Under the pieces are notes generated by a model. That model was not told the DNA's origin and did no database searches. It worked only from the letters and a program-made list of their open reading frames with translations. 30,578 bases of DNA. It comes from a virus. Positions 6,172 to 9,490 of the stretch are shown here, one piece after another. How positions within the stretch are numbered: position 1 is the stretch's first letter; every line of letters starts with the position of its first letter. Position numbers and translations under genes: made by a program. Location: positions 1 through 30,578 of IMG/VR virus record IMGVR_UViG_3300013126_000154; one strand, written 5' to 3'.

Positions 6172-6200
6172 AATTTAACAAAATTAAACCAACGTATCAA
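6172..6200 (-). promoter_or_regulatory. Leftward promoter P1
   Basis: On the minus strand, TTGATA (6195-6200) and TAAATT (6172-6177) are separated by exactly 17 bases. Spacing and -10 match P2, and the spacer shares GTTGGTTTAA with P2. It lies 6 bases behind the stop of the 33-aa peptide gene and about 57 bases upstream of the 90-aa gene start, and would drive the replication block. Unlike P2 and P3, no leader hairpin is evident. Confidence 0.65.
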
Positions 6201-6337: not shown

Positions 6338-6664
6338 TCAATCATCTGACTCATCATCTGACTCATCGTCTGACCAAAAGCCTGACCCAGAACCATCGTC
6401 AGACCCATAACCTGACCTAAAGCCTGACCCAAAACCTGAACCATCGCCAGAGCCAGAGCCGGAGCCAAAGCCAGAGCCAGAGCCAAAGCCATAGCCATAG
6501 CCTGACGCGGACCCAGAGCCATCACCTGACCCATCGCCAGAGCCAAAGCCATCACCGAACCCAGAGCCATCACCTGACCCATCGTCAGAGCCAAAGCCAG
6601 ACCCATTTCCAGACCCAGAGCCCGAACGGTTTACAATTAATCTATCTTTCTCAGTAAAAATCAT
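6338..6664 (-). CDS. Ser-Gly-Asp repeat protein, copy 4 (108 aa)
   Basis: Last of four tandem paralogous genes. The N-terminus MIFTEKDRLIVNR matches [13 protein letters not shown] of copies 1 and 2. It is followed by about 75 residues of GSG, DGSG and FGSG repeats and an acidic end DDESDDESDD. ATG at 6664 is preferred over an upstream TTG because SD GAGGGG is 8 bases before the ATG. It starts 2 bases after the stop of copy 3. About 58 bases near its 3' end (about 6386-6443) are almost identical to part of copy 2, showing exchange or duplication between copies. The protein should be unfolded and strongly acidic. No family with known function is recognised. Confidence 0.78.
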   Translation of the reverse strand: MIFTEKDRLIVNRSGSGSGNGSGFGSDDGSGDGSGFGDGFGSGDGSGDGSGSASGYGYGFGSGSGFGSGSGSGDGSGFGSGFRSGYGSDDGSGSGFWSDDESDDESDD

Positions 6665-6666
6665 AA

Positions 6667-7242
6667 TCAAAACCCCTCATCATCTGACTCATCGTCTGAC
6701 CCATCATCATCATCACCTGACAATGACCCTGACCCCGACCCTGACCATGACCCTGACCCGTAACCTGAACCGTCACATGACCCTGACCCTGACCCTGACC
6801 CTGACCCATCATCATCATCACCTGACCCATCACCTGACCCGTAACATGACCCTGACCCATCACCTGACCCTGAACCATCACCTGACCCGTAACATGACCC
6901 TGACCCATCACCTGACCATGACCCTGACCCGTAACCTGAACCGTCACATGACCCTGACCCTGACCATGACCCTGACCATGACCCTGACCCATCACCTGAC
7001 CCATCATCATCATCACCTGACCATGACCCTGACCCCGACCCTGACCATGACCCTGACCCATCACCTGACCCGTAACATGACCCTGACCCATCACTTAACC
7101 CTGACCATAACCCTGACCCTGACCCATCACCTGACCCATCACTTAACCCTGACCATAACCCTGACCCTGAACCATCACCTGACCCGTAACATGACCCTGA
7201 CCCATCACCTGACCAAACACTTTTTTTTTCGCTAAAAAACAT
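6667..7242 (-). CDS. Ser-Gly-Asp repeat protein, copy 3 (191 aa)
   Basis: Third and longest gene of the array. The N-terminus MFFSEKKSVWSGDGSG has diverged from the [11 protein letters not shown] form. The body repeats GSGDGSG, GSCYGSGDG, WSGSGSG and DDDDGSG, and the end is DDESDDEGF. It uses a different DNA unit from its neighbours (minus strand GGGTCA instead of GGCTCT), so it expanded independently. SD GAGGAG lies 8 bases before ATG 7242. A run of nine A (minus strand) lies within the first codons, a possible slippage site. The repeat has five GGG runs at 6-base spacing at 6781-6807, a canonical G-quadruplex motif that would also be in the mRNA. Confidence 0.76.
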   Translation of the reverse strand: MFFSEKKSVWSGDGSGSCYGSGDGSGSGLWSGLSDGSGDGSGSGLWSGLSDGSGSCYGSGDGSGSWSGSGSGSWSGDDDDGSGDGSGSWSGSWSGSGSCDGSGYGSGSWSGDGSGSCYGSGDGSGSGDGSGSCYGSGDGSGDDDDGSGSGSGSGSCDGSGYGSGSWSGSGSGSLSGDDDDGSDDESDDEGF

Positions 7243-7244
7243 AG

Positions 7245-7634
7245 TCAAAACTCCTCATCATCTGACTCATCACCTGACTCATCACCTGACACAAAGCCAG
7301 ACCCAGAACCATCGTCAGACCCATAACCTGACCTAAAGCCTGACCCAAAGCCTGAACAATCATCAAACCCAAAGCCAGAGCCAAAGCCAGAGCCAAAGCC
7401 TGAACCATCGCCAGACCCAAAGCCAGAGCCATCGCCAGGCCCAGACCCAGAACCATCGTCAGACCCATAACCTGACCCATAACCTGACCCAAAACCTGAA
7501 CCATCGCTAGAGCCAAAGCCAGACCCAAAACCTGACCCAAAACCTGAACCATCGCCAGAGCCAAAGCCAGAGCCATCGCCAGACCCAATGCCAAACTCGC
7601 CCTCAATTAATCTATCGTTTTCAGAAAAAATCAT
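7245..7634 (-). CDS. Ser-Gly-Asp repeat protein, copy 2 (129 aa)
   Basis: Second gene of the array. The first 13 codons ([13 protein letters not shown]) and about 70 bases around the start are nearly identical to copy 1, pointing to a recent duplication. The body is [11 protein letters not shown] repeats with Phe, Tyr and Arg-Ser variants; the end is [20 protein letters not shown] sits 8 bases before ATG 7634, and the stop of copy 1 is 2 bases before it, so ribosomes could re-initiate. The final Phe codon and the stop are part of the conserved TTTTGA leader of the next gene, so the terminal residue may not be selected for function. Confidence 0.78.
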
Positions 7635-7636
7635 AA

Positions 7637-8044
<408 letters not shown>

Positions 8045-8057
8045 AATCAAAACCCTT

Positions 8058-8080
8058 AAAAAAGCCGCAAAAGTGCGGCT
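8058..8080 (-). terminator. Hairpin with T-tract between the DUF6948-like gene and the repeat array
   Basis: Minus strand AGCCGCA-CTTT-TGCGGCT is a perfect 7-bp stem with a 4-base loop, followed by TTTTT, the form of an intrinsic terminator for the gene ending at 8084. It stands 7 bases before the AGGG SD of repeat copy 1, the same spacing as the leader hairpins of P2 and P3, so it may also act as a leader hairpin. If it terminates, the array depends on read-through or antitermination. Confidence 0.7.
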
Positions 8081-8083
8081 AAA

Positions 8084-8491
8084 TTATTTTAAATTAGATG
8101 GTACAAAAACTGGAACATTTTGAATACTTTCGCGAGCTTTCTTAGTGCATTTACATATTTCAAAACCATATGTGGGGGAGCTTAAAGTTACTTCATCAAC
8201 CTCTGCCGGGAAACGACAATCGTGTGGGAGTGCAGTGCCGTCTGTCGCTAAAGTTGACAATGAGAAAGCACCTTCCCAATGCCAGAGTCTTCTGCATCTT
8301 CTGAGTACTTTTACTGTGTCAGTGCTTTTTTCTTTGTCTAAGTATCCTGCAAAGACTCCAAAGTTGTACGTGCGTACGATAACATAATCAAAAGATAGGT
8401 AGTCTTCATTTTCTTTTTTTCCTGAAGTTTCTTCGAGCTTTTCTAAAGCTTTCGAAAGGGTACTGGTTGCGATTTTCAATTCATCAAACAT
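8084..8491 (-). CDS. DUF6948-like small phage protein, 135 aa
   Basis: The core reads [20 protein letters not shown], then [25 protein letters not shown], then [12 protein letters not shown]. This layout (VIVRTY.aGV.aG.L, RR.W.W.GA.tL..lA) resembles DUF6948, a family of small phage proteins without known function. The first 30 residues are a helical charged segment. A longer frame exists to 8527, but it would read through the leader hairpin. ATG 8491 has AGGAG 7 bases upstream and fits the P2 transcript. It is first in the P2 unit, followed by the hairpin at 8058-8080. Confidence 0.68.
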
Positions 8492-8510
8492 AATAAAACT
8501 CCTAAAATTT

Positions 8511-8525
8511 GCTGCAAAGTGCAGC
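8511..8525 (-). promoter_or_regulatory. Leader hairpin II of the P2 transcript
   Basis: Minus strand GCTGCA-CTT-TGCAGC, a perfect 6-bp stem, located 7 bases before the AGGAG SD of the DUF6948-like gene. The leader of P3 has an equivalent hairpin at the same distance. Confidence 0.7.
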
Positions 8526-8535
8526 ATGTTAAAGC

Positions 8536-8557
8536 GAGCAACTAACCTCAGTCACCC
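8536..8557 (-). promoter_or_regulatory. Leader stem-loop I at the 5' end of the P2 transcript
   Basis: The 22-base element GGGT-G-ACTG-AGGT-TAGT-T-GCTC folds into two 4-bp helices (some G-U pairs) around an internal G/T mismatch. The matching element in P3 pairs at the same positions with different bases. It begins within 2-3 bases of the expected transcript start. Confidence 0.6.
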
Positions 8558-8565
8558 ACGAAATC

Positions 8566-8594
8566 AATTTAAAACACTTAAACCAACAAGTCAA
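8566..8594 (-). promoter_or_regulatory. Leftward promoter P2
   Basis: Minus strand TTGACT (8589-8594), 17-base spacer, TAAATT (8566-8571). The -35 overlaps the stop codon of the 96-aa gene. The leader would be about 68 bases, with stem-loop I and hairpin II. Same layout as P1 and P3. Confidence 0.72.
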
Positions 8595-8881
8595 GTTTTT
8601 TTATCAAAATATTTCGATATTAAAATATCTTCAGCATCAAAAATCGTGTCGCAGAGATCATCAGAGTTTAGAATAATGTCGTCTGTAGTGTATTTTTTCA
8701 ACCTGATGTCAAGCGCATCAAAAATAGGTAGCAGTAACTTATTTTCGACAAATGTACTAACTGCATCGCAAAGCTCTTCTTCAGAATCAAACTTAAAATC
8801 AGTATTATCGAACTCTTTAAGAATAGCAGACATAACAAGAGAACAGTTGACATGAATTGGCTCGAAACAAAAATCGTTCAT
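8591..8881 (-). CDS. Acidic hypothetical protein, 96 aa
   Basis: Not recognised. An acidic, mostly helical 96-aa protein (MNDFCFEPIHVNCSLVMSAI..., then SEEELCDAVSTF and TTDDIILNSDDLCDTIFDAEDILIS) with several cysteines and no membrane segment. The start has AAGGGG 7 bases upstream and is the first gene of the P3 transcript, nearest the control region. That position suggests very early expression. Small acidic early phage proteins are often host-takeover or anti-defence factors, but nothing in the sequence proves that here. Confidence 0.72.
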   Translation of the reverse strand: MNDFCFEPIHVNCSLVMSAILKEFDNTDFKFDSEEELCDAVSTFVENKLLLPIFDALDIRLKKYTTDDIILNSDDLCDTIFDAEDILISKYFDKKT

Positions 8882-8900
8882 AAAAAATCCCCTTAAATTT

Positions 8901-8914
8901 GCTGCTCATGCAGC
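8901..8914 (-). promoter_or_regulatory. Leader hairpin II of the P3 transcript
   Basis: Minus strand GCTGC-ATGA-GCAGC, a 5-bp stem, followed by AAATTTA and the AAGGGG SD. Same spacing to the SD as the P2 hairpin but different stem length and loop. Confidence 0.68.
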
Positions 8915-8923
8915 GGTTAGAGT

Positions 8924-8945
8924 GAGCTACTGACTTCAGTCGCTC
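8924..8945 (-). promoter_or_regulatory. Leader stem-loop I at the 5' end of the P3 transcript
   Basis: The 22-base element GAGC-G-ACTG-AAGT-CAGT-A-GCTC forms two 4-bp Watson-Crick helices. Compared with P2, bases differ on paired positions while pairing is kept. Confidence 0.62.
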
Positions 8946-8953
8946 GCAAAGTT

Positions 8954-8982
8954 AGTTTAACTCAATTGAATCATTAAGTCAA
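8954..8982 (-). promoter_or_regulatory. Leftward promoter P3
   Basis: Minus strand TTGACT (8977-8982), 17-base spacer, TAAACT (8954-8959). It would start transcription near 8947 and drive the 96-aa gene with a 66-base structured leader. It is the first leftward promoter next to the control region. Confidence 0.72.
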
Positions 8983-9433
8983 GTTTTTCTATCAAAATAT
9001 TTTAAATTTTTTTAAATGTGTGTTTTTAAAAGGATATTTATCGCACTAAAAATAGTTATAGGTATTCTATGTGTGTAGTGTTTAGCGTTTTGTAGTGAAA
9101 AATTTTAAAAAACAGCACTCTAACAACTACTACAACATACTCTAACACAACACTCTAACATCAACAGAGAGTAAGAAAAGTATGTGTTTTGTAATAGTGT
9201 TAGAGTCTTCTTATTCTTATATTAACTAGTATTATAATAATAGGAAACCATAACAGCTAAACACACACAGAAAAAGACTATATGCACACTTTATAGTTAT
9301 GGGTAACCAAAAACACACACTACACAGTAGCACCAAGGGGGCGCTTTTTACTCTTACACTCTAACATTCTAACACAACAAAAAGTTTTGTTACTGCCGCA
9401 TATATAAAAGTGTTGTAGTGGTTTGTTAGAGTC

Positions 9434-9477
9434 TGTGTAAGGATGCTGTTGGAGCTTGTGTAAGGATGCTGTTGGAG
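9434..9477. repeat. 21-bp direct repeat, two copies
   Basis: TGTGTAAGGATGCTGTTGGA followed by G is present at 9434-9454 and again at 9457-9477, a period of 23 bases. Each copy ends in a variant of the TGTTAGAGT motif. Confidence 0.9.
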
Positions 9478-9490
9478 TCTTACAACACGT

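Follow-up and report, generated by a model that had tools for sequence, protein, structure and literature searches.

What is the role of a strongly folded RNA leader that occurs twice, at the predicted starts of two early transcripts, in a phage for which no close relative was found in the collections searched? The window analysed here is the 30,578-base IMG/VR record IMGVR_UViG_3300013126_000154, whose gene content marks the phage as contractile-tailed. The terminase, portal, head protease, tail sheath and baseplate genes all run rightward, and the leftward early genes include a SNF2-type helicase, a DUF2800/exonuclease and a candidate VRR-NUC nuclease, the last assigned on a score under the Pfam cut-off. 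The nearest terminases, 46-55% identical, come from metagenomic contigs and one Neisseriaceae MAG.

Layout of the duplicated promoter cassette

Two leftward promoters, P3 and P2, each sit ahead of one small early gene. Their starts are predictions that place +1 at 7 nt past the -10 hexamer, i.e., at G8947 (P3) and G8559 (P2). The elements of the two cassettes are the following:

8954 to 8982, minus strand: P3 promoter, -35 TTGACT (8982-8977), N17, -10 TAAACT (8959-8954)
8922 to 8947, minus strand: P3 stem-loop I, core 8945-8924 GAGC.ACTG-AAGT-CAGT.GCTC, with the predicted +1 at its first base
8915 to 8923, minus strand: P3 spacer ACTCTAACC, an 8/9 match to the array motif ACTCTAACA
8901 to 8914, minus strand: P3 hairpin II, GCTGC-ATGA-GCAGC
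8889 to 8893, minus strand: P3 Shine-Dalgarno (SD) sequence AGGGG, 7 nt past hairpin II and 7 nt ahead of the ATG
8591 to 8881, minus strand: 96-aa ORF under P3, of no known family
8566 to 8594, minus strand: P2 promoter, -35 TTGACT (8594-8589), N17, -10 TAAATT (8571-8566)
8534 to 8559, minus strand: P2 stem-loop I, core 8557-8536, 11 consecutive pairs of which 5 are G-U, with the predicted +1 at its first base
8511 to 8525, minus strand: P2 hairpin II, GCTGC-ACTTT-GCAGC
8499 to 8503, minus strand: P2 SD sequence AGGAG, 7 nt past hairpin II and 7 nt ahead of the ATG at 8491
8084 to 8491, minus strand: DUF6948 gene (PF22253, E = 1e-19)

Read on the minus strand, the P3 cassette runs TTGACT-N17-TAAACT-AACTTT-GCGAGCGACTGAAGTCAGTAGCTCAC-TCTAACC-GCTGCATGAGCAGC-AAATTTA-AGGGG-ATTTTTT-ATG, and the P2 cassette runs TTGACT-N17-TAAATT-GATTTC-GTGGGTGACTGAGGTTAGTTGCTCGC-TTTAACAT-GCTGCACTTTGCAGC-AAATTTT-AGGAG-TTTTATT-ATG. 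Both follow the same order, i.e., UP-like A-tract, -35 and -10 hexamers, stem-loop I, CTYTAAC spacer, hairpin II, AAATTTN, SD and ATG, and they are 77% identical across the 87 nt of promoter and leader. Since a 27-nt stretch upstream of P3 (AAATATTTTGATARAAAAACTTGACTT) is also present upstream of P2, the duplicated block starts at or before the A-tract, a putative UP element. The initial annotation described this site as a duplicated early promoter with a structured RNA leader, and the sequence supports that description: the shared TTGACT-N17-TAAAYT is present in both cassettes, the 22-nt stem-loop I lies at 8945-8924 in P3 and at 8557-8536 in P2, hairpin II with its GCTGC/GCAGC stem stands exactly 7 nt ahead of the SD (8914-8901 and 8525-8511), and the geometry as claimed holds throughout. 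The hexamers of P2 and P3 score only 9/12, and promoter-like sites of this score are common, with 27 observed between 4000 and 10500 against 19 +/- 5 expected. The stop codon (TGA) of the 96-aa gene falls within the P2 -35 hexamer TTGACT (8589-8594).

Folding and pairing of the leaders

When the first 61 nt past +1 were folded for 129 sigma70-like (9/12) sites across the whole window, the P2 leader gave the lowest energy and the P3 leader the second-lowest (-22.0 and -19.6 kcal/mol). Equally good folding is seen in 0.16% (P2) and 1.3% (P3) of GC-matched 68-nt segments, and the shuffle z values of the leader folds are -2.96 and -1.75. Because P2 and P3 are duplicates, this ranking counts as about one strong observation, not as two that are independent. 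In each copy, stem-loop I begins within 0-2 nt of the predicted +1, and its pairing can reach +1 over 11 positions, with standard pairs at 9 of them in P3 and at all 11 in P2; the predicted +1 is itself paired in P2, and the core stem of P3 sets in at +3, a further pair being possible at +1. Hairpin II keeps an invariant stem and the same distance to the SD in both copies, and its loop differs in length and sequence (ATGA versus ACTTT). The SD is unpaired in the P2 MFE structure and in the centroid of the longer P3 leader; in the P3 MFE structure, the spacer CUCU pairs with the SD. As predicted by these folds, the duplicated promoter cassette carries well-formed structured leaders without known relatives.

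The initial annotation had additionally read the differences between the two copies of stem-loop I as covariation, a claim that finds no support, as 0 of 16 pairs are changed on both sides in this comparison of two sequences only. Seven differences fall within 26 nt, one of them in the loop, and all 8 core pairs are kept. Three pairs change on one side through wobble (A-U to G-U, C-G to U-G and G-C to G-U), and two pair positions that are mismatched in P3 are G-U in P2. When the substitutions are permuted, the 8 core pairs all survive in 57% of the P3-to-P2 trials and in 1.5% of the P2-to-P3 trials, so that the duplication alone is no proof of selection on structure. Because the P2 changes yield G-U rather than A-C, the P2 stem is present only in the transcribed sense (-11.2 kcal/mol for the sense RNA, which holds via 5 G-U pairs, versus -1.2 kcal/mol for the antisense). 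The P3 stem is slightly better in antisense than in sense (-12.9 versus -10.5 kcal/mol). That RNA rather than DNA would be the functional form is thus weakly supported, the sense/antisense difference of the P2 stem being the sole asymmetry in its favour.

A third promoter copy without hairpins

A further copy of the promoter lies downstream, ahead of a 90-aa ORF and then, in order, the replication genes:

6172 to 6200, minus strand: third promoter copy, TTGATA-N17-TAAATT, E = 6e-10 to the P2/P3 region

This copy is clearly homologous to P2 and P3 and is 82% identical to P2 over 51 nt. It keeps GTGAGTG past +1 and has neither stem-loop I nor hairpin II, so promoter and hairpins are separable. 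The initial annotation had held that broken stems beside surviving promoters would speak against the structured leader; one such case is found here, within the window, and it indicates that the hairpins are dispensable for the promoter, without implying that they are useless.

Searches for relatives of the leader

Exact and degenerate leader patterns gave two chance matches each, or none, in IMG/VR, and these fell in one promoterless region, one coding region and two P2-like capsid scaffold genes. No match was obtained by blastn of the leader region against phage records, and no Rfam 15 family reached its gathering score for the leader. Among the portal/terminase relatives (46-55% identity; L016-L020, L098 and L105), no such leader is present in the three upstream regions examined (L019, L098 and L105). 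The initial annotation had proposed to search phage genomes with a covariance model of both leaders; when run, such a model gave no match beyond chance in 27 related loci, 80 DUF6948 loci and 300 genomes from the order of the terminase-bearing Neisseriaceae MAG. The novelty lies in the little-known phage rather than in the kind of element.

Possible protection of the 5' end

The preferred reading, held tentatively and at somewhat less than an even chance, is that the leaders belong to the 5'-terminal stem-loop type, as in ompA, and would shield early mRNA from 5'-end-dependent decay while keeping the ribosome site open. Protection of the 5' end is the best fit, given a predicted 5' nucleotide in the stem or no more than 2 nt away. 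Stabilisers of the ompA type prolong mRNA half-life, an effect dependent on base pairing at the 5' end. As in the stabilisers of E. coli ompA and papA, a stem-loop would stand at the 5' end predicted for the window leaders, with a strong, unpaired SD after it; unlike those stabilisers, the leaders precede phage early genes and contain two hairpins, with no sequence relation claimed and a role in stability proposed by analogy.

Under this reading, transcription would start at G8947 and G8559, placing the 5' triphosphate in stem-loop I or at most 2 nt from it, and stem-loop I would hinder RppH and 5'-end-dependent RNase E. Hairpin II would close off the upstream leader and leave the AU-rich SD single-stranded, the outcome being a long-lived and well-translated mRNA for the 96-aa and DUF6948 proteins. 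At the third promoter, the hairpins may have been lost or never gained, leaving an ordinary leader for the replication genes.

Several observations argue for such protection: the leaders are the two most stable folds past +1 among the 129 promoter-like sites, far above the GC-matched background; stem-loop I adjoins the predicted +1 in both copies; the SD stays unpaired both in the fold of P2 and in the P3 centroid; the P2 differences give G-U pairs that hold in RNA and not on the opposite strand; and hairpin II varies in its loop at a constant stem and SD distance. In line with this, both RppH and RNase E need the 5' end of the RNA to be single-stranded, and this accounts for the stabilising effect of structure there (PMC3997798). 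On the other side, the starts are predictions from hexamers of a common 9/12 type, compensatory changes number zero, the P3 antisense fold beats the sense fold, the third promoter does without hairpins, and the basis is one duplication, with no leader homologues found in the searches above. If true, 5'-end protection would make this locus a tidy natural case in which duplicated phage promoters carry their own stabiliser, and the sister promoter without hairpins would provide an internal control within one genome.

Alternative readings

The region downstream of the DUF6948 gene raises the question of antitermination:

8063 to 8080, minus strand: strong intrinsic terminator AGCCGCA-CTTT-TGCGGCT-TTTTTT, between the DUF6948 and Gly-Ser-repeat genes
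6338 to 8050, minus strand: four tandem Gly-Ser-repeat genes, downstream of the DUF6948 gene

The terminator (8080-8063) ends directly ahead of the SD of the first Gly-Ser-repeat gene, and the minus strand from 8490 to 6313 contains no promoter-like site (9/12). The Gly-Ser-repeat genes therefore appear to need read-through, which is why antitermination is kept as the main rival: a put-like two-hairpin leader, acting independently of protein or aided by a phage factor, would load on the polymerase and carry it past the terminator into the Gly-Ser-repeat genes and beyond. This is unlikely, and it is distinctly unlikely that the leaders represent a put-like, sequence-unrelated class of cis-acting antiterminator RNA reading through the DUF6948/Gly-Ser terminator. 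In the case of put, suppression of termination depends on the beta' zinc-binding domain. As with HK022 putL and putR, the first 60 nt or so of an early transcript in the window contain two hairpins, in two copies per phage, and those of HK022 putL stand at the very 5' end of the early transcript (PMC9378689). The DUF6948 and Gly-Ser-repeat genes, moreover, look translationally coupled in relatives (see below), and their co-expression is presumably wanted. The terminator, however, may simply end the unit, and the replication genes are served by a promoter of their own further downstream (6200), which lacks the hairpins. The proportions also differ, as the HK022 put RNA, of about 70 nt, has two long stems ~1 nt apart, whereas the spacer of the window leaders measures 7-9 nt and their hairpin II 14-15 nt, versus about 37 nt in put. 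In contrast to put, both window leaders adjoin an SD, which is more UTR-like, and both copies lie on the same strand. A put-like function, if true, would provide a second put-like RNA, unrelated to put.

A put identity proper was addressed with a covariance model (R2) built from eight put RNAs, for which HK022 putL was located via 25/25 nt from the published structure and confirmed by annotation in HK75. The model recovered HK022 putR at 46.8 bits, with putR itself left out and its close relative HK75 putR included, and had no match in the window at E<=10; an HK022 put identity of the leaders is therefore ruled out. The P2 leader also resembles lambda nut (boxA-boxB) in that a hairpin of 5 bp, with a loop of 5 nt, comes after a pyrimidine-AAC spacer (CTTTAACA), but the P3 spacer and loop do not fit, and no N-like gene was recognised. 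A boxA reading was rejected: the P2 spacer matches rrn boxA at 9/12 positions, yet 58 equal or better matches in the window put this at chance level, and the P3 spacer scores <9/12.

Passive duplication, in which promoter and leader were copied to drive another small gene and the hairpins are incidental and unselected, is rather unlikely. It would account for an identity of 77% that spans promoter and leader together over 87 nt, for a stem-loop I conserved no better than its surroundings, for the absence of compensatory changes and the ambiguous permutation test, and for the third copy without hairpins. It sits poorly with fold strengths ranking first and second of 129, with core pairing intact at 8/8 positions although 26 nt contain 7 differences, and with a hairpin II whose stem and SD distance are invariant while its loop has changed.

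There is a small chance that control is exerted at the DNA level, the dyads or the CTYTAAC spacer being operators at which a phage regulator acts, immediately past the promoters. All 6 perfect copies of the motif ACTCTAACA in the window fall within the neighbouring control region (9117-9432); 13 matches reach 8/9 or better, the P3 spacer among them, and 10 of the 13 are located in 8923-9478. The P2 spacer GCTTTAACA is a weaker match (7/9), however, the dyad of the P2 stem-loop I is broken as DNA (Watson-Crick at 6/11 positions), and no repressor gene was recognised among the window proteins scanned. Trans-acting control by an RNA-binding protein or RNase III at the leader, through translational repression or processing, is very unlikely, for although both copies have hairpin II at a constant 7 nt from the SD and the P3 MFE structure pairs the spacer CUCU with the SD, the hairpin II loops are wholly different, the stems are short for RNase III, and both the P2 MFE structure and the centroid of the longer P3 leader leave the SD free.

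DUF6948 genes and Gly-Ser-repeat genes

At least 471 DUF6948 genes were detected by pattern search, and no mention of DUF6948 was found in the literature searched. The loci for the pairing described here are L164-L243, L005 and L163. At nearly all of 50 loci, the DUF6948 gene is followed within a few bases by a Gly-Ser/Asp/Tyr/Phe-repeat ORF, 43 of the 50 reaching the threshold; several of the others have weaker repeats or end at a contig edge, as three of the exceptions do. The pairing spans G+C contents from 0.29 to 0.66, the repeats being kept in the protein as codons vary with G+C. An ATG, GTG or TTG at -10 or -13 from the DUF6948 stop overlaps the DUF6948 codon for the C-terminal Trp at 36/45 loci, and many of these starts have an SD-like stretch just upstream; thus, the pair looks translationally coupled. 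In the window, the terminator, together with separate SDs, takes the place of this coupling, and the repeat gene occurs in four copies. A programmed -1 frameshift, considered for the relatives' Gly-Ser ORFs (39/45 in the -1 frame), was set aside, since the frame is accounted for by a start codon that overlaps the conserved Trp codon. The pairing may merit a separate finding. In L164, the AT-rich contig with the best DUF6948 match, a 12-bp hairpin (GGATAACTGAAAAATTTAATTAAAGGAG) lies upstream of 2977, shortly ahead of an SD, a layout like that of the window leaders without sequence relation.

The control region between early and late genes

The ACTCTAACA array extends over 9117-9478, in the divergent control region that separates the early from the late genes; its 6 perfect copies occur in both orientations and are absent elsewhere in the window. 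They are possibly operators or origin iterons. Adjoining the array, a tandem 23-bp repeat (TGTTGGAGTCTGTGTAAGGATGC) is present in 2.5 copies at 9424-9480.
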